From: a virus
DNA length: 20,292 nt
Strand: one strand, 5' to 3'
IMG/VR virus record: IMGVR_UViG_3300032286_001342
Coordinates: 1-20,292 of that record
Part shown: one piece after another, positions 1,955 through 19,586 of the stretch
How the letters are laid out: each line of letters opens with the position of its first letter
Position numbering within the stretch: position 1 is the stretch's first letter
Made by a program: the position numbers and the translations under genes
Notes under the pieces: generated by a model
Told to the model about the DNA's origin: nothing
Database searches by the model: none
What the model saw: only the letters and a program-made list of their open reading frames with translations

Positions 1955-1961
1955 ATAAATA
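1954..1961 (+). promoter_or_regulatory. T4-type late promoter (AATAAATA)
   Basis: AATAAATA matches the NATAAATA late consensus described for T4-like cyanophages. It begins at the last base of the previous stop codon and ends 17 bases before the ATG of the nucleotidyltransferase-like gene. The following bases ACTAAAAA are identical to those after the late promoter at 15774. Confidence 0.7.
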
Positions 1962-1978
1962 ACTAAAAACCAATATAA

Positions 1979-3172
1979 ATGAAGACTTTTGCCCAGTTCA
2001 TAATAGAAGCACGAACTACTGCCGCATCCACGGAAGCAAGAAATCGTGGTCTTAAAAGTGATGCCCATGGAGATTATTACGATAATCAAGGAAATCTTGT
2101 AGCAAAAACTGTGGGAGGAAAGTTGCAATATTTTGGTCAAGGTGGTGCCGGGGCACAACAGCAGCAACAAACACAACAAAGGACTTCACAAACATCATCA
2201 CAACAAACTGCGCCACAGCAGATTCAAAATGCACCACAGGAAGAGCAACAAGAACCAAATGGTGTAGTAATTGTATTGGGAAGATTCAATCCACCATCCA
2301 AAAATCACGAAGCACTTTTAAGGGCAGGGTATTCACAGGCAAACAGAAGAAAATTTGAATATCGCATATACCCAAGTCGTATTCAGGATGATGCTACAAA
2401 TCCATTGAATGTAAGACTTAAAGTTTCTTATATGCAATCAATGTATCCACAATATGCAGAATATATTGTGGATAGTGATAAGATGAAAACAATATTTGAT
2501 GTTCTTGAATCTTTATATGGTGATGGATATACTGATGTAGTTATTGTTGTTGGTCAAGATAGACTTGGAGAGTTTCAAAGTTTAGCACACAAAGGCGAAG
2601 GAGAAGCATATCAATTCAATACCATTCAGGTAATTTCTGCTGGTGTGAAAGATCCAGATAGTGATGTTGGAGGTGCTGGTTCTTCTGCGATGATGAGAAC
2701 CGCTGCTGCTATGGGAGATTTTGAAAAGTTTTCAAGTGGCCTTCCCGCTACTATGAAGGTTAGTGAAAGAAAAGAAATGTTTAATACTATAAAAAGGTCT
2801 ATGAAGGTAAATGAAAATACTGAATTATGGAAAATAGCGCCTGAACTTGATTATAATGGAATGAGATGGAACTATAAGAAAAATGGATTATTTGAGGTGG
2901 GAGCATTCGTTGAAAATTTAAATACCGGATTGGTTGGAAGAATACTTCGTAAAGGTTCAAATCATCTTATCTGTGTGACAGAAGATGGAGTAATGTTTAA
3001 GAGTTGGTTAAGAGATTTGAGAGAAGTTCAAGAGATTGGAACTTGTGATTATAGAGCACACGCGCAATCAATGACGCCCGGACAACCAGTAGTTCCTTAT
3101 ACGGATACTGAAATTAAAATAACAGTACCAAAGAAAAAGATAAATACTAAAAGAAATAGTGGGTCTAAGTAA
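1979..3172 (+). CDS. Capsid-targeted nucleotidyltransferase-like virion protein
   Basis: A 397-residue protein in three parts. Residues 1-11, MKTFAQFIIEA, resemble the T4 internal-protein leaders that direct proteins into the prohead and are cut by the gp21 protease after (L/I)xE, here predicted after Glu10. A Gln/Thr/Ser-rich linker of about 40 residues precedes the second part. From about residue 95, VVIVLGRFNPPSKNHEAL (G101-H110) fits the N-terminal loop of the HxGH nucleotidyltransferase superfamily (cytidylyltransferase/NMN adenylyltransferase fold), and SSAMMR (235-240) fits its C-terminal ISSTxxR-like motif. The canonical HxGH reads SKNH here: the first His is Ser and the Gly is Asn, so activity is uncertain. 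A C-terminal domain (residues about 290-350) is unidentified. It heads a late block under the promoter at 1954, and the next gene starts 4 bases after its stop. The substrate cannot be told from the sequence. Confidence 0.8.
   Translation: MKTFAQFIIEARTTAASTEARNRGLKSDAHGDYYDNQGNLVAKTVGGKLQYFGQGGAGAQQQQQTQQRTSQTSSQQTAPQQIQNAPQEEQQEPNGVVIVLGRFNPPSKNHEALLRAGYSQANRRKFEYRIYPSRIQDDATNPLNVRLKVSYMQSMYPQYAEYIVDSDKMKTIFDVLESLYGDGYTDVVIVVGQDRLGEFQSLAHKGEGEAYQFNTIQVISAGVKDPDSDVGGAGSSAMMRTAAAMGDFEKFSSGLPATMKVSERKEMFNTIKRSMKVNENTELWKIAPELDYNGMRWNYKKNGLFEVGAFVENLNTGLVGRILRKGSNHLICVTEDGVMFKSWLRDLREVQEIGTCDYRAHAQSMTPGQPVVPYTDTEIKITVPKKKINTKRNSGSK
3139..3146 (+). promoter_or_regulatory. Possible internal late promoter (GATAAATA)
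   Basis: GATAAATA fits NATAAATA and lies inside the end of the preceding gene, 30 bases before the ATG at 3177, the spacing seen for other late promoters here. It is followed by CTAAAAG, similar to the ACTAAAAA following the promoters at 1954 and 15774. It is within coding sequence, so chance occurrence is possible. Confidence 0.35.
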
Positions 3173-3176
3173 AAAA

Positions 3177-4076
3177 ATGAAGACTTGGAAAGAAATTATT
3201 ACCGAAGAAAAGAAAAAAGGACTATCTTCATATCAAGATTATTTGAATAGGCAACTTGATTATAAAATCAAAAAGCACGAAGAACAAAAGAAAGCACAAA
3301 TTGAAAGAATAAAGAAAAGATATATAAAAAAACATATAGAAAAAGCAAAGATGTTGCTTTCTAAAATTAAATCCCAAACTATTTCTAGTAAAGATAAAGA
3401 AGGGACTGCATATTTTAAAGCAATGGGAAATGTGGGATCTGCTGCTGCTGGCGTTGCTGGTGCGGCTACTCACGGCACAAAAGCATATTTTGCAAAAAGA
3501 AAAGCAGATGCAGAGGCAAAAGAAGCAGAAAGAAATCAACCAAATAAGAAAGAAAAAAAATCTGCAGGAAGACCACCAACAATTAAAGAAAATAATTTAA
3601 ATGAAATGAAGACTTGGAAAGAAATCATTACCGAAGCAGAATCAAGAATACAGAAACAACGTAGAATTGAAGTAGAGAAACTTGCCGATACAGACCCATC
3701 AATGTCAAAATCTCTCCAAAGTAAAGAAAAAAGAGAAAAGTATAGACAAAAAAAGGCATCTGAATATACACAATATTTAAATAGGCAACATGAATTTAAA
3801 GTGCAAAAATATGAAGACCAAAAGAAAGCACAAATTGAAAGATTAAGAAAAAAAGGAGTAGAGCAACACGCAGCAGCAGCAAAAGCATCTCTTTCTGGTA
3901 TTAAAACTCAACAGATTAGTAGTCAAGATAAAGAAGGAACTGCATATTCCAAAGCAATGGGAAATGTAGGTTCTGCTGCTGCTGGCGTTGCTGGTGCAGC
4001 AGTTAATCTTACAAAGTTGGCTTTTGCAAAAAGAAAAGCAAATGCAGCAGCAAATGCAGCAAAAGAAGCACAACCA
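3177..4076 (+). repeat. Tandem in-frame duplication of a leader-containing module
   Basis: The stretches 3177-3605 and 3606 to about 4076 encode related modules in tandem. Shared blocks in the same order are MKTWKEIITE, YLNRQ, QKKAQIER, DKEGTAY, KAMGNVGSAAAGVAGAA and AFAKRKA/YFAKRKA. The DNA is also similar, for example ATGAAGACTTGGAAAGAAAT at 3177 and 3606. The second copy has an insertion of about 30 residues after the leader. It looks like a gene duplication fused into one frame by loss of a stop between the copies. Confidence 0.85.
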
Positions 4077-5534
4077 GAAAAGAAAGAACCAGGGGCACCA
4101 GGAAGACCACCACAAGCAAACAAAACTGCACCAGCAACTCCTGGGACTGGATCTTCAAGTTCAGCATCTACACCAAAAGCAACTGCGCCAGCAACTAGAC
4201 CTTCTGGACCCAAAGGACCTTCTGGACCATCGGGACCAGCAGCAATGAGACCAAAAGGACCTTCTGGACCAAAAGGACCATCGGGACCAGCAGCAATGAG
4301 ACCAAAAGGGCCGGGATCTAATGTATCAACCGGACAAAAACCAACTGCACAAGCATCAACAACATCAACAGTTCCAGCGAAACGTGTTGTACATAAAGCA
4401 CCAACCGCATTTGGATTTCCTGTTGGTCGTTTAGCCACAGCAACTGCAGTTGCTGGTAAAACTTTATCCGGAAAATTTCATACTATTGGACGAGGAGGAG
4501 AAAATCCACTCAGCAAAAGAATTGATAAAGCCAATGCGGTAAAAAGACCATATAAAGGAAATACGTCAAATATTAGAGAAAAATATTCCAATTGGAGAGA
4601 TGAATTGCTCACCGAACAGGGATTGATTATTGAAATTGATGATTTTGGTTTAAAAGATAATAAAAAAGAAAAGGGAAAGGAAAAGAAAAAAATTATTGAT
4701 GTGATGAAAGGGAAAAATAAAATTGATATTAATCCAAATGAAACATCAGTTAAAGAAGCAGTAGATAATCCAGATACTCAACAAAATCCAAATCAAGAAG
4801 ACAATTTACAAAAAAAACAAAAAGCAATACAAAGACAAATCTTAATGAAAAAAATACAGTCATTATCAGTTCCCGGAGCAACTGATATTACTGCATCTTA
4901 TGACCCAATGATTGGTGAGGCATATAGAGATGAGGAAGGAGGAATGGCTCGTAATGAACTTTCTACGATGGAAAGGGCAGTTAAATCACTTCGTAAAAAA
5001 ATAAAATCAAATAATCAACAATTGCCTGCGTGGGTTCAATCCAAAATCACAAAAGCAGCAGACCATATTGATACTGTTGCGGATTATATGATGGGCGAAA
5101 CCGAATCAATCAAAGAAGCATATGACGACGAAAATGAAACTTTCCGTCAGCATTCTCGTGAGAGATTTACTGCTGGTCCTGCTGATGATGATAGAGCACA
5201 AAGAACTTCCAGAGTTCTTCAAAAAATAAAAGAACTCAATAAAGATGCTGAACCAAAGAAAAAGAAAAAGAAAAAAAAAATTAAACTAGAAGAAGAAGGA
5301 CCCGTATTATCTGTTGGAAGAGGTGAAAAACTTTCAGTAAAAAGGGGTGGAGGACTTACCCAAAAAGGTAGAGATAAATACAATCGTGCTACTGGTTCAA
5401 ATCTTCAAGCACCAGTTACCGGTAAGGTAAAACCAGGAAGTAAGGCGGCAAAACGTCGCAAAAATTTCTGCTCCCGTAGTAGAAGTTGGCACGGAGAAAG
5501 AGGATTAGCAGCAAGAAGACGTTGGAAGTGTTAG
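3177..5534 (+). CDS. Capsid-internal virion protein with duplicated targeting leader (785 aa)
   Basis: I place the start at ATG 3177, not the GTG 18 bases upstream, because this puts the leader MKTWKEIITEE at the very N-terminus, as in T4 internal proteins. The leader recurs at residue 144 (MKTWKEIITEA). Residues 1-143 and 144 to about 300 are two copies of one module: each has YLNRQ, KKAQIER, DKEGTAY.KAMGNVGSAAAGVAGAA and a GRPP motif. Then come a Pro/Ala/Thr linker, a collagen-like GPSGPKGP stretch (about residues 340-380), and NWRDELLTEQG, another site that could suit the prohead protease. A Lys/Glu-rich segment and a helical domain (GGMARNELSTMERAVKSL) follow. The end is basic, with FCSRSRSWHGERG and RRRWKC. 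This architecture is familiar from cyanophage virion proteins of unknown function. It is probably cleaved and packaged in the head; that is inferred from the leader. Confidence 0.8.
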   Translation: MKTWKEIITEEKKKGLSSYQDYLNRQLDYKIKKHEEQKKAQIERIKKRYIKKHIEKAKMLLSKIKSQTISSKDKEGTAYFKAMGNVGSAAAGVAGAATHGTKAYFAKRKADAEAKEAERNQPNKKEKKSAGRPPTIKENNLNEMKTWKEIITEAESRIQKQRRIEVEKLADTDPSMSKSLQSKEKREKYRQKKASEYTQYLNRQHEFKVQKYEDQKKAQIERLRKKGVEQHAAAAKASLSGIKTQQISSQDKEGTAYSKAMGNVGSAAAGVAGAAVNLTKLAFAKRKANAAANAAKEAQPEKKEPGAPGRPPQANKTAPATPGTGSSSSASTPKATAPATRPSGPKGPSGPSGPAAMRPKGPSGPKGPSGPAAMRPKGPGSNVSTGQKPTAQASTTSTVPAKRVVHKAPTAFGFPVGRLATATAVAGKTLSGKFHTIGRGGENPLSKRIDKANAVKRPYKGNTSNIREKYSNWRDELLTEQGLIIEIDDFGLKDNKKEKGKEKKKIIDVMKGKNKIDINPNETSVKEAVDNPDTQQNPNQEDNLQKKQKAIQRQILMKKIQSLSVPGATDITASYDPMIGEAYRDEEGGMARNELSTMERAVKSLRKKIKSNNQQLPAWVQSKITKAADHIDTVADYMMGETESIKEAYDDENETFRQHSRERFTAGPADDDRAQRTSRVLQKIKELNKDAEPKKKKKKKKIKLEEEGPVLSVGRGEKLSVKRGGGLTQKGRDKYNRATGSNLQAPVTGKVKPGSKAAKRRKNFCSRSRSWHGERGLAARRRWKC
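4224..4309 (+). repeat. 51-bp tandem repeat encoding collagen-like GPx units
   Basis: A 35-base identical block occurs at 4224-4258 and 4275-4309, a period of 51 bases (17 codons). It encodes GPSGPAAMRPKGPSGPK-type sequence, with partial further GPSGP units just upstream. The Gly-Pro-x triplets are collagen-like but interrupted by AMRPK. Such short in-frame repeats can change copy number by recombination or slippage. Confidence 0.85.
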
Positions 5535-15800: not shown

Positions 15801-17327
15801 ATGAACTCACAGGATTTACAAAATTTACAAGAAGCATATATGGAAGTTTGTGAAGGCGCTGCCGCAGAACATCCTGATATTGCCAATCAATCAGAGTTTC
15901 AAAAAAAAGCTGATGAAGTTCTAAAACAAAGGCAACAAAAAAGAGCAAAGAAAGTATCACCTGAACTTCCTTCTTTTGTGAAGAGATTGAAGAAAGAAGA
16001 ATTTGAACTTGACGAAAGACACATGACTTCTGCGGAAAAAAGAAAGGAAGAGGCACTTGGAAAGAAAACTGCTTCCGCAAAGACATCAATGATGAAGCAA
16101 TATGGGTCAAAAAAAGGAGAACAAATTTATTATGCTTGGAAAAGAAAGCAAGCAATGAAAGAAGAACTTTCAGTTGATGATGCGTATGATTATATAATTG
16201 AAACTTTAATTGATTTAGAATTCGCAGAAGATTATGAGAATGCGGAAAATATGTTTGAGAGTATGAGTGATGAATTTGTAGAAGTTATTCTGGAAGAATA
16301 TATTGAAGAAAAGGCAAGAGGAACCAGACCAAAAAGAACAGTTCATGCATATGATGTAGATGAAACTTTGGTCGGGCACGGTAAGAAAGGAAAAACAAAC
16401 GTGAAAGTTCACGTAAATGATGCATCCGGCAAAAGAGTTAAGAGTTTAAGTAATCAAGAGTTCAATACCCATAAACTTGATAAAGGTCATTCTTATGATT
16501 TTAGTGAATTTAAAAGTGCTAAAAAGTTTGGAGAAACTTCAAGTGCAAACAAAAAAGTAATTAAAGACGTTAAGAGAAAACAAGCAAGAGGTCAAAACGT
16601 TCATATCATTACTGCTCGTTCAAAGTTTGATAATCCATCAGAGTTTCAAGGTCATTTGAAGAAACACGGTGTTGATGTTCCTTTAAATAAAATTCATTAT
16701 ACTGGTGGAATGAAGGGCAGTGATATTGGAAAGAAAAAAGTAGATGTGGCAAAAGGAGTCGCAAAGCAAAGTGGTGCCAAGAAGATCCATATGTATGATG
16801 ATGCCGCAAAGGTTCATAAAGCATTTGAGGGAGAAAAGAAAAATCAACCAACTTCTACAAAAATTAAAACTCATTTGGCAAAACCAAATGTGTCTGGGGA
16901 AACCCAACTTCGTTCCTATCAGGCAACAAAAGGTGGAAGATCTAGTGATAATCCATCATCAACCATAAAGCAAACACAACGCAGAAGACAAAAAGCAAGA
17001 AAGAATATGGGCGAAGAAGTATCTTCTTATCTAAATATAGAAGAAGGAAAAGTCAAAGGAGAAATTATGTCACATTCCTACCAAGAAACCAAAGAAGATT
17101 TTGATCTTAGAGATAAACTCTTTATCAATTTCTCTGGAACTTCAAAAGCAAAAAATGAATTAAAAGAAGAAATTGAAATGACTCCATACGAACAATGGAA
17201 GACTTATATGAAAGAAAATAATGTTAAAGAAATTCAAGAGTCTGTTGATATTGAAGAAGATTTAAATGAAGATACTTCAACTATGAATTCTTATCAAACT
17301 TGGAAGTCATATCTTGAATCTATTTGA
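15801..17327 (+). CDS. Probable capsid-internal protein with HAD phosphatase-like domain (508 aa)
   Basis: The N-terminus MNSQDLQNLQEA contains LQE-A, a possible prohead-protease site. A basic helical region (HMTSAEKRKEEALGKK, MMKQYGSKKGEQIYYAWKRKQ) and an acidic helical module (about residues 124-167) follow. Residues about 180-350 form a HAD-like domain: motif I D185-V-D187-E-T189, motif II T271 in HIITARS, and motif IV D333-D334 in MYDDAAKV. HAD enzymes use the first Asp as nucleophile in Mg2+-dependent phosphoryl transfer; all key residues are present, so activity is plausible. The C-terminus has two similar segments, MTPYEQWKTYMKE and MNSYQTWKSYLES. Expression comes from a perfect late promoter. 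Related cyanophage proteins are, as I recall, annotated as hypothetical or structural. The HAD domain is confident; packaging is inferred. Confidence 0.8.
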   Translation: MNSQDLQNLQEAYMEVCEGAAAEHPDIANQSEFQKKADEVLKQRQQKRAKKVSPELPSFVKRLKKEEFELDERHMTSAEKRKEEALGKKTASAKTSMMKQYGSKKGEQIYYAWKRKQAMKEELSVDDAYDYIIETLIDLEFAEDYENAENMFESMSDEFVEVILEEYIEEKARGTRPKRTVHAYDVDETLVGHGKKGKTNVKVHVNDASGKRVKSLSNQEFNTHKLDKGHSYDFSEFKSAKKFGETSSANKKVIKDVKRKQARGQNVHIITARSKFDNPSEFQGHLKKHGVDVPLNKIHYTGGMKGSDIGKKKVDVAKGVAKQSGAKKIHMYDDAAKVHKAFEGEKKNQPTSTKIKTHLAKPNVSGETQLRSYQATKGGRSSDNPSSTIKQTQRRRQKARKNMGEEVSSYLNIEEGKVKGEIMSHSYQETKEDFDLRDKLFINFSGTSKAKNELKEEIEMTPYEQWKTYMKENNVKEIQESVDIEEDLNEDTSTMNSYQTWKSYLESI

Positions 17328-17422: not shown

Positions 17423-18169
17423 ATGGAAACTTGGAACACTGTCAAAACTCTTAAAGATATTGCAGGGGCATATCAATCAATCTACGAGAAAAAGGAGTAC
17501 GAACCATCCAGAGACAAAGATGGTGATGGTGACAATGACTTTGCGGATAATATGATTGCGAGAATGGTTGCTTCTGGTATGTCCAGAGAAGAAGCAATTA
17601 AAAAAGTAAAGAATAAATCATATAATAAAAAAGAAGTTGAAGCAGTTGATGAAAAGTATATAGGATTTAAAAAGTTAGAAGCATCCATTGCTGCTAAAGG
17701 TGGAGTTAGAAATCCAGCTGCCGTTGCTGCTTCAATTGGACGCAAAAAGTATGGAAATAAAAAGTTCCAAAACGCAGCAGCAACAGACCACAAACTCAAT
17801 GAAGCATATGAAGCATATGAGTTTGTAGCATCATATCTTCTTGAAAATAATTTTGCTAATACAATTGAAGATGCAAATGCCATTATCAACAATATGAGTG
17901 AGGGTTGGTTTGAAAGTATTATGGAAGAAAAAGGATCTCTTCCTATTGCTAAAATGAAGAGAAAAGAAACAGAACTTCTTGGAAGTGATGAAGAACATTT
18001 TGCAACATTGAACACACCTATGGGTTCTCCTGAAAGAAAAAAAGCAATGAAAAACCTTGACAGATTTGATAATATAAATACGGCAAGAAGAAGTGTAGCA
18101 ACTAGAGGTGGCAAGAGACCATTACCAATGCCCGAAGTTGGTAGATATAGATCAAAAGACGAAGATTAA
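17423..18169 (+). CDS. Probable virion protein with EF-hand-like loop (248 aa)
   Basis: A 248-residue protein starting METWNTVKTLKDIAGAYQ. Residues 31-42, DKDGDGDNDFAD, form an EF-hand or dockerin-like calcium-binding loop (D31, D33, D35, with D42 in place of the usual Glu at position 12). Next comes a helical segment, then KKLEASIAAKGGVRNPAAVAAS and IGRKKYGNKKF, a Lys/Ala-rich motif I know from cyanophage virion-type proteins. Residues 127-169 (AYEFVASYLLENNFANTIED...MSEGWFESIMEE) resemble residues 124-167 of the preceding 508-aa protein, so the two share a module. The tail is basic and Pro-rich. It has its own late promoter and terminator. A capsid-internal or structural role is inferred from this company; there is no enzyme motif. 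Confidence 0.75.
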   Translation: METWNTVKTLKDIAGAYQSIYEKKEYEPSRDKDGDGDNDFADNMIARMVASGMSREEAIKKVKNKSYNKKEVEAVDEKYIGFKKLEASIAAKGGVRNPAAVAASIGRKKYGNKKFQNAAATDHKLNEAYEAYEFVASYLLENNFANTIEDANAIINNMSEGWFESIMEEKGSLPIAKMKRKETELLGSDEEHFATLNTPMGSPERKKAMKNLDRFDNINTARRSVATRGGKRPLPMPEVGRYRSKDED

Positions 18170-18749: not shown

Positions 18750-19586
18750 ATGACTTTTAATCTTAATAATTTTTTCAAGTATTATGACGAGCATAATGCA
18801 AATCATGTTGCTGCCGTAGGTATTCTTTCAAAGGCAATTCCAAGTCTGTTAACTCCAAGTTCAGAATGGGTAGTTTCTTATCGTGGAAAGGATACTGGAG
18901 AAGCAGTTGAACTTCATAAGTTCTTTCAATACTTCAGTGAAAAGAATTCCAATCATACAAAAGCAATTGATCAACTAGAAAAAGTAATTCCAGCAGAATT
19001 ACTTTCTGATGCTGCTGCATGGGTTGTAAAATACAGAGAAAAACCACCAGCACCAAAAGAACTGAACCTAAATGTTCCTTATTATAATCAGGTAGATAAT
19101 TACCGTGATGCTTTTAGATCTTGTAATAGTTCCTCCTGTGCAATGTGCTTAGAGTTTATTAAACCAGGAACATTACATGGACCTAAGGGAGATGATGCTT
19201 ATATTCAAAAAGTATTCGCAATTGGTGATACAACGGATCATTCAGTTCAAACCCAAGTTCTTGCATCTTATGGGGTTAAGTCTGAATTTGATTACTCTTT
19301 GGGTTTTGATGATCTTGATAAGAGTTTATCCGCTGGGAAACCTGTTGTTATTGGTATCCTACACAGGGGTTCTTTGTCTGCTCCTACTGGTGGGCACATG
19401 GTTGTAGTTAGAGGTAAGACTGCTAAAGGGGATTATTATGTAAATGACCCATTTGGGTCTCTGAATGATGCTTATACTGGACCTGTAGGGAATGGTAAGA
19501 ATGTTGTTTATAGAAAAGAAGTTCTTAAGTATCGTTGGTTAGAAAATGGAAGAGATAATACTGGATGGGGAAGAATTTTCAAATGA
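18750..19586 (+). CDS. C39-like cysteine peptidase, possible endolysin or virion peptidase (278 aa)
   Basis: Residues about 105-278 carry a peptidase C39-like papain fold. The visible set is Q114 (PYYNQVDNYRD), C125 (RSCNSSSCAM), H216 (GGHMVVVRG) and D233 (YVNDPFG), the oxyanion-hole Gln and Cys-His-Asp order of the family. C39-like domains in phages are linked to peptide-bond cleavage, some in cell-wall lysis. The N-terminal 95 residues are two similar modules of about 42 residues (NNFFKYYDEHNANHVAAV and HKFFQYFSEKNSNHTKAI, each ending in WVVSYRGK or WVVKYREK). They may bind the cell wall or another partner. It has a late promoter and is followed by a DUF1003 membrane protein. No signal peptide is visible, so a lysin would need a holin. 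A virion-associated role is an alternative. Confidence 0.8.
   Translation: MTFNLNNFFKYYDEHNANHVAAVGILSKAIPSLLTPSSEWVVSYRGKDTGEAVELHKFFQYFSEKNSNHTKAIDQLEKVIPAELLSDAAAWVVKYREKPPAPKELNLNVPYYNQVDNYRDAFRSCNSSSCAMCLEFIKPGTLHGPKGDDAYIQKVFAIGDTTDHSVQTQVLASYGVKSEFDYSLGFDDLDKSLSAGKPVVIGILHRGSLSAPTGGHMVVVRGKTAKGDYYVNDPFGSLNDAYTGPVGNGKNVVYRKEVLKYRWLENGRDNTGWGRIFK

Follow-up and report, generated by a model that had tools for sequence, protein, structure and literature searches.

Two adjacent genes in the DNA analysed here, a 20,292-nt virus contig fragment (IMGVR_UViG_3300032286_001342; hereafter the window), start with similar stretches of residues, MKTFAQFIIEA for the gene at 1979 and MKTWKEIITEE for the gene at 3177. 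The question is whether these stretches are capsid-targeting leaders of the phage T4 type, by which both products would be loaded into the phage head. The virus is T4-like and of cyanophage type, and its host is probably a cyanobacterium, which is an inference only. The gene order runs from a mazG-like piece at the left end through unknowns, the NMNAT-family gene at 1979, the gene at 3177 and others to a primase (11287), nrdA (12288) and nrdB (14573); the same order is found in Kyanoviridae such as S-SZBM1 and S-SCSM1. In the S-SCSM1 record, SSCSM1_89 to 93, 95 and 97, which lie in the interval from mazG to primase, carry the label virion protein; the genes at 1979 and 3177 therefore sit in a region with virion products in a relative. 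Pfam returned no domain for the products of the window's ORFs at 422, 1979, 5536, 9171 and 15801. Coordinates are collected in Table 1.

Table 1. Features of the two neighbouring genes, in window coordinates.
Feature	Position	Strand	Details or basis
Late-promoter-like ATAAATA	1955..1961	+	24 nt upstream of the 1979 start
NMNAT/cytidylyltransferase-family protein, 397 aa, with capsid-targeting leader (inferred)	1979..3172	+	phrog_395; fold; virion homologues
Leader MKTFAQFIIE, predicted cut after Glu10	1979..2008	+	Homologue invariance; T4 ipII/ipIII form
Module, residues 13-54, common to other leader-bearing virion proteins	2015..2140	+	HMM matches to S-CREM2 gp14 and gp12
Nucleotidyltransferase domain, about residues 95-274, signature SKNH	2261..2800	+	Alignment, predicted fold
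Late-promoter-like ATAAATA	3140..3146	+	37 nt upstream of the 3177 start
Low-complexity basic protein of 785 aa (pI 10.1); leader at the N-terminus, DUF6321 at the C-terminus	3177..5534	+	
Leader copy 1, MKTWKEIITE then Glu	3177..3206	+	Kept in close relatives
Two duplicated segments, 534-nt spacing (3224-3466/3758-4000 and 3488-3578/4022-4112)	3224..4112	+	77% identity
Internal leader copy 2, MKTWKEIITE then Ala	3606..3635	+	Scan of the window
DUF6321 (PF19846) domain	5343..5495	+	E 3e-13, 50.6 bits, cut-off 28.5

The original prediction had recognised in these N-termini a leader very similar to that of T4 IPIII, and the T4 record bears this out, since both ipII and ipIII begin MKTYQEFIAEA. 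The likeness extends to the ten-residue length, an aromatic residue at position 4, Phe7, a hydrophobic residue at position 8 and Glu10, as well as to a protease of the S77/gp21 type in the phage group, likely late expression, and the use of one leader on unrelated cargoes. The IPIII residues of importance are 4 and 7 for targeting and 8 and 10 for processing (PMC9026906). The two systems differ in their cargoes, small anti-restriction proteins in T4 as opposed to an NMNAT-fold protein and a large basic DUF6321 protein here, in the host group, which is inferred to be cyanobacterial here, and in the 3177 protein, whose leader is of the Trp4/Ile7 form and recurs once inside the protein. T4 Alt, an ADP-ribosyltransferase, travels in the phage head, is processed by gp21 and reaches the host cell (PMC9026906); it resembles the present case as proposed here, that of an enzyme as head cargo, although no homology between Alt and the window proteins was seen (the leaders being outside this comparison). 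T4 gene 61.1 (NC_000866, 18966-19130) encodes a 54-aa product of unknown function that begins MKTFKEFIKED, and gp61.1 may be an unrecognised head-targeted protein.

The 1979 protein, whose ORF and N-terminus were confirmed as originally read, belongs to phrog_395 (profile search, E 9e-82) and has relatives in 547 phage records. AlphaFold predicts a confident domain at about residues 95-274, and the closest PDB folds to this predicted domain are NadD/NMNAT, that is, nicotinate/nicotinamide mononucleotide adenylyltransferases (8aih, E 2e-5). Searched by sequence, the PDB yields no match to the protein; the fold link rests on the predicted structure alone. The usual nucleotide-binding signature (H/T)xGH is not met, this protein and its close relatives having SKNH, where many other members of the family have TIGH and that of S-SZBM1 has HAGH. 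NMNAT activity is thus uncertain in this lineage; we file the protein as NMNAT-fold rather than as an active NMNAT, and any role in NAD metabolism is inferred. It satisfies the criteria of family membership with a nucleotidyltransferase fold and of an N-terminal leader with an aromatic residue at position 4, hydrophobic residues at 7 and 8, and Glu10. Across 19 divergent homologues, M1, K2, F4, F7 and E10 never vary, and conservation of A11 is 90% or more. Nucleotidyltransferase-family members of RaK2, Syn1 and HTVC008M lack the leader, though the protease is present in these phages. One has to keep in mind that residues behind the leader are also conserved across the NMNAT family, as they would be if the shared N-termini reflected no more than family conservation or coincidence, the virion detections described below being then a carry-over of abundant proteins.

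The 3177 protein also has the N-terminus that had been reported for it, MKTWKEIITEE. The span originally proposed for the pair, 1979-3209, is correct in its two starts; its end falls at about the end of the second leader and is no gene boundary. The mechanical ORF call places the start of the second gene at GTG 3159, which we set aside in favour of ATG 3177 because relatives have their ATG at the equivalent position, only a few nt away from the preceding stop codon. The protein contains 15% lysine, meets the curated Pfam cut-off for PF19846 that serves as the criterion for DUF6321, and is likely DNA-associated. A stand-alone DUF6321 protein of 95 aa, found elsewhere, begins MKTFKQFIKEA. By residue class, MKTWKEIITEE fits the leader, but Trp4/Ile7 departs from the Phe/Tyr4 and Phe7 of T4, and a Glu follows the putative site in copy 1. 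To our knowledge, the Trp4/Ile7 form has no experimental precedent. Close relatives carry the leader as MKTWKEIITEA, MRTWKEVIAEA, MRPWNEIIAEA or MKNWKDIIKEE, and farther relatives begin MASWEEFSRIVAEA. The positional equivalents SSCSM1_92 and S-SZBM1_139, which share a YSxWR-like motif with the 3177 protein, are both reported in virions, and their N-termini are unlike the 3177 leader; packaging of the 3177 protein is hence probable, not established.

A third leader copy, MKTWKEIITEA, absent from the original prediction, lies at 3606 inside the 3177 protein and comes from a tandem duplication of the N-terminal segment. The duplicated pieces, of 243 and 91 nt, are about 77% identical, and the 33 leader nucleotides are 97% identical between copies; at the protein level, the ten leader residues are the same in both copies and the whole duplicated segment is about 50% identical. 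A leader better conserved than the rest of the duplication fits selection on the leader, and gene conversion could explain it equally. The copies differ at about 23% of their bases, which makes an assembly error unlikely. The near relative L057, whose NMNAT protein is 97% identical, has only one leader copy. Since the segment duplicated in 3177-4112 includes its leader, a cut inside the protein might set free a piece of about 143 residues.

A large, basic, low-complexity protein of this kind is what one might expect if the packaged proteins were head-assembly or DNA-condensing factors with no action in the next host; mutants of T4 IPIII show head aberrations, and a scaffolding role has been suggested for it (PMC9026906). 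This reading, which we keep as a possibility and consider unlikely, has to contend with the many leader cargoes that are enzyme-like and better fit delivery, and with the action of T4 IP1-3 in the host (PMC12373910).

Both genes are preceded by the late-promoter-like sequence ATAAATA (Table 1). The number of copies in the window is close to chance (12 vs 9.7 +/- 3.1 expected) and only their placement is non-random, 9 of the 11 plus-strand copies lying 10-60 nt upstream of gene starts (P about 4e-11, or 3e-7 with an AT-rich null). Those at 1955, 3140, 8868, 9138, 15775, 17376/17380, 18715 and 19625 stand 24-47 nt upstream of eight gene starts, and these eight are probable late genes of the window. 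The late-type products of 15801-17327 and 17423-18169 share another recurrent stretch at their N-termini (LQEAYMEVCE, AGAYQSIYE). It is also seen on virion protein 89 of S-SCSM1 (LSEAYAAVYS), among others, and may represent another N-terminal motif of virion proteins. The 15801 product has a weak polynucleotide-kinase/HAD-like match (E 2e-4). Downstream of nrdB, 18750-19586 encodes a C39-family peptidase (PF13529, E 6e-13); the S-SZBM1 and S-CREM2 annotations include C39 peptidases as well.

No gp21/S77 protease gene lies in the window itself, a 20,292-nt fragment. A peptidase S77 is found in 15 of 16 related records and in a sister contig of L057; it is also present in all seven (7/7) contigs of at least 170 kb that match the leader search key described below, among the matches listed. 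In three relatives, the capsid proteins have ILTE/A, FLAE/A and FISE/A near the N-terminus, where the maturation cut would be expected.

The leader had further been proposed as a search key for packaged proteins, and it does work as one, bringing up many unrelated proteins. The key MKT[FY]x[EQ]FIxEA matched at least 119 IMG/VR stretches, as against 0 for two scrambled keys of similar degeneracy. Among the matches listed (127), 114 begin at most 20 codons from an upstream stop or contig end, 121 are open frames of at least 60 aa and, once the leader is removed, more than 40 protein clusters remain; counts from the leader-gene scans rest on part of the matches and are to be taken as "at least". 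With a looser pattern, 14 phage records gave 21 matches vs 1 for a reversed control, and T4 ipII, ipIII and 61.1 were recovered. The leader matches are not due to chance. As far as can be judged from sequence, the leader is a portable tag for many unrelated cargoes in T4-like phages of the cyanophage group.

Cargoes found with the key comprise the NMNAT family, a T4 IPIII homologue, DUF5661, DUF6321, RlpA-like and glucosaminidase domains, a GNAT family (PF13508, E 6e-9) and a possible ADP-ribosyltransferase (PF00644, E 4e-4, under its cut-off). Leader-bearing GNAT acetyltransferases occur at loci L198, L221, L226, L244 and L245, PF13508 being above its cut-off in L198. Small leader-bearing proteins at L213, L168, L218, L233 and L188 show the pattern YHGT...VY and match the PARP/ADP-ribosyltransferase fold below threshold; they are a possible functional parallel to T4 Alt.

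Virion proteomes of cyanophages provide a link between leader and particle. Published mass spectrometry places members of the NMNAT family in the virions of S-SM1 (T4-GC190; PMC3037559), S-SCSM1 (ORF91; PMC9602691), S-SZBM1 (S-SZBM1_140; PMC9146016) and S-CREM2 (ORF154; PMC10665884), and S-CBWM1 is cited in this literature as a further case. The four members detected in S-SM1, S-SCSM1, S-SZBM1 and S-CREM2 begin MKKFSAFLNEA, MKSFLQFLKEA, MRFRQFIIEA and MKNFSSFLTEA, respectively. These NMNAT/cytidylyltransferase-like proteins, found in virions, resemble the 1979 protein in family, gene neighbourhood and leader form and differ in that the window lineage has the SKNH signature. In S-CRM01, homologues carry the leader as MKLFNQFFKEA on a cytidyltransferase and MISFDQFLSEK on a kinase. 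Two of the papers state that the enzymes in virions may be either cargo or carry-over (PMC10665884, PMC9602691); the accessible text of the cyanophage proteome papers does not mention the leader and leaves packaging open.

A relaxed form of the leader is rare, occurring at 4 of 6648 candidate start codons in S-CREM2, 6 of 6296 in S-SCSM1 and 2 of 6960 in S-SZBM1. The four S-CREM2 genes with it (gp6, gp13, gp14 and gp154) all figure among the 52 entries of the published virion list (hypergeometric P 0.003); they include a SAM lyase, gp6 (PF23780, E 2e-19), and a kinase-like protein, gp14. For the three phages together, 6 of 8 annotated leader genes are represented in virions, the figure for all genes being 127 of 717 (P 6e-4); the number of S-CREM2 genes that enters this comparison is approximate. 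The relaxed expression was adjusted after the S-CREM2 N-termini had been seen; with a stricter pattern fixed beforehand, 3 of 5 leader genes have products in virions (P 0.04). Both misses are one small conserved leader family (SSCSM1_30, SSZBM1_191), unreported in virions. A conserved leader-bearing family of about 105 aa, starting MK[ST]F..F[LM]SES.NI.GDFNG, lies near terminase genes (L129 44215-44535, L116 22311-22628, L145 and L173) and is missing from the S-SCSM1 and S-SZBM1 virion lists.

That the shared N-termini mean nothing beyond family conservation or coincidence, with carry-over, a process mentioned by proteome authors, accounting for the detections, now appears very improbable. The same leader stands on dozens of unrelated proteins in the search above, where scrambled keys find none; the S-CREM2 leader genes are all represented in virions; and the duplication in the 3177 protein keeps the leader intact in a segment that has otherwise diverged. 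Whole-virion mass spectrometry gives no location, and the same interval also encodes tail-fibre-like virion proteins, so that the leader might instead be an attachment helix for portal, neck, tail or baseplate, its carriers being virion components neither packaged in the head nor injected. We give little credence to this: at the important residues the leader agrees with the head-targeting sequence of T4, it ends in a site of the prohead-protease type resembling that of the capsid protein, and its carriers include soluble enzymes, e.g., the SAM lyase and kinase-like proteins.

The similarity between leader-bearing proteins does not stop at residue 10. With the leader excluded, an HMM of NMNAT-family residues 13-54 matches two copies in the kinase-like gp14 of S-CREM2 (E 1.5e-18), as well as gp12, a PHROG 3561 protein (E 1.8e-10), and several proteins of 200 aa; conversely, the PHROG 3561 profile weakly matched residues 6-50 of the 1979 protein. 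A leader-like stretch lies upstream of N-terminal copies of the module, mostly directly and about 18 residues ahead in gp12. This suggests a putative packaging module larger than the ten-residue tag, the 42-residue stretch being known only from the loci examined here. S-CREM2 gp12 (L284 4705-7314), a PHROG 3561 member with the leader-like stretch and the module near its N-terminus, is annotated as "CRISPR-associated endonuclease Cas9", for which Pfam gives no match.

The original prediction had both products packaged in the head. For the 1979 protein, this is well supported by inference from homologues (invariant residues, match to the T4 leader, S77 in a relative, virion homologues); for the 3177 protein, with its atypical leader, the case is weaker and packaging only probable. 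The explanation we favour for both, with good confidence although no protein of this virus has been observed, is T4-type capsid targeting, enclosure, cleavage after Glu10 and delivery. Late in infection, the N-terminal helix, with its aromatic residue at position 4 and hydrophobic residue at position 7, would bind the prohead core, and the tagged protein would become enclosed in the prohead, a head location that is inferred; a protease of the S77/gp21 type would cut after (I/L)-x-Glu10, a cleavage likewise inferred here, leaving the mature protein free inside the head, from which it would most likely enter the next host along with the DNA, injection being again an inference. The cargoes would be an NMNAT-fold nucleotidyltransferase (1979) and a basic low-complexity DUF6321 protein (3177).

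A wider reading, to which we would give even chances, is that loading in T4-like phages of the cyanophage group is modular: the ten-residue tag, often with the 42-residue module, would bring a variable set of proteins into the head, to be delivered as soon as infection begins, and the set of a given phage could be read from its genome. It would include the NMNAT fold, the SAM lyase, kinase-like proteins, PHROG 3561, GNAT, the possible ADP-ribosyltransferase and wall-acting domains. The tag is already known in T-even phages and the kind of system is known from T4; no report of the leader in cyanophages was found in the open-access literature, and within that literature what appears to be new is that the system extends to the cyanophage group, that it has enzymes as cargoes, that it connects with virion enzymes so far unexplained, and that a module is shared.

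Cyanophage virion proteomes repeatedly hold metabolic and regulatory enzymes for which cargo and carry-over have remained undecided, and the tag offers a mechanism for their entry. It allows head-loaded, probably injected proteins to be predicted from sequence, and the first-minute effectors of marine and freshwater T4-like phages become a genome-search question.
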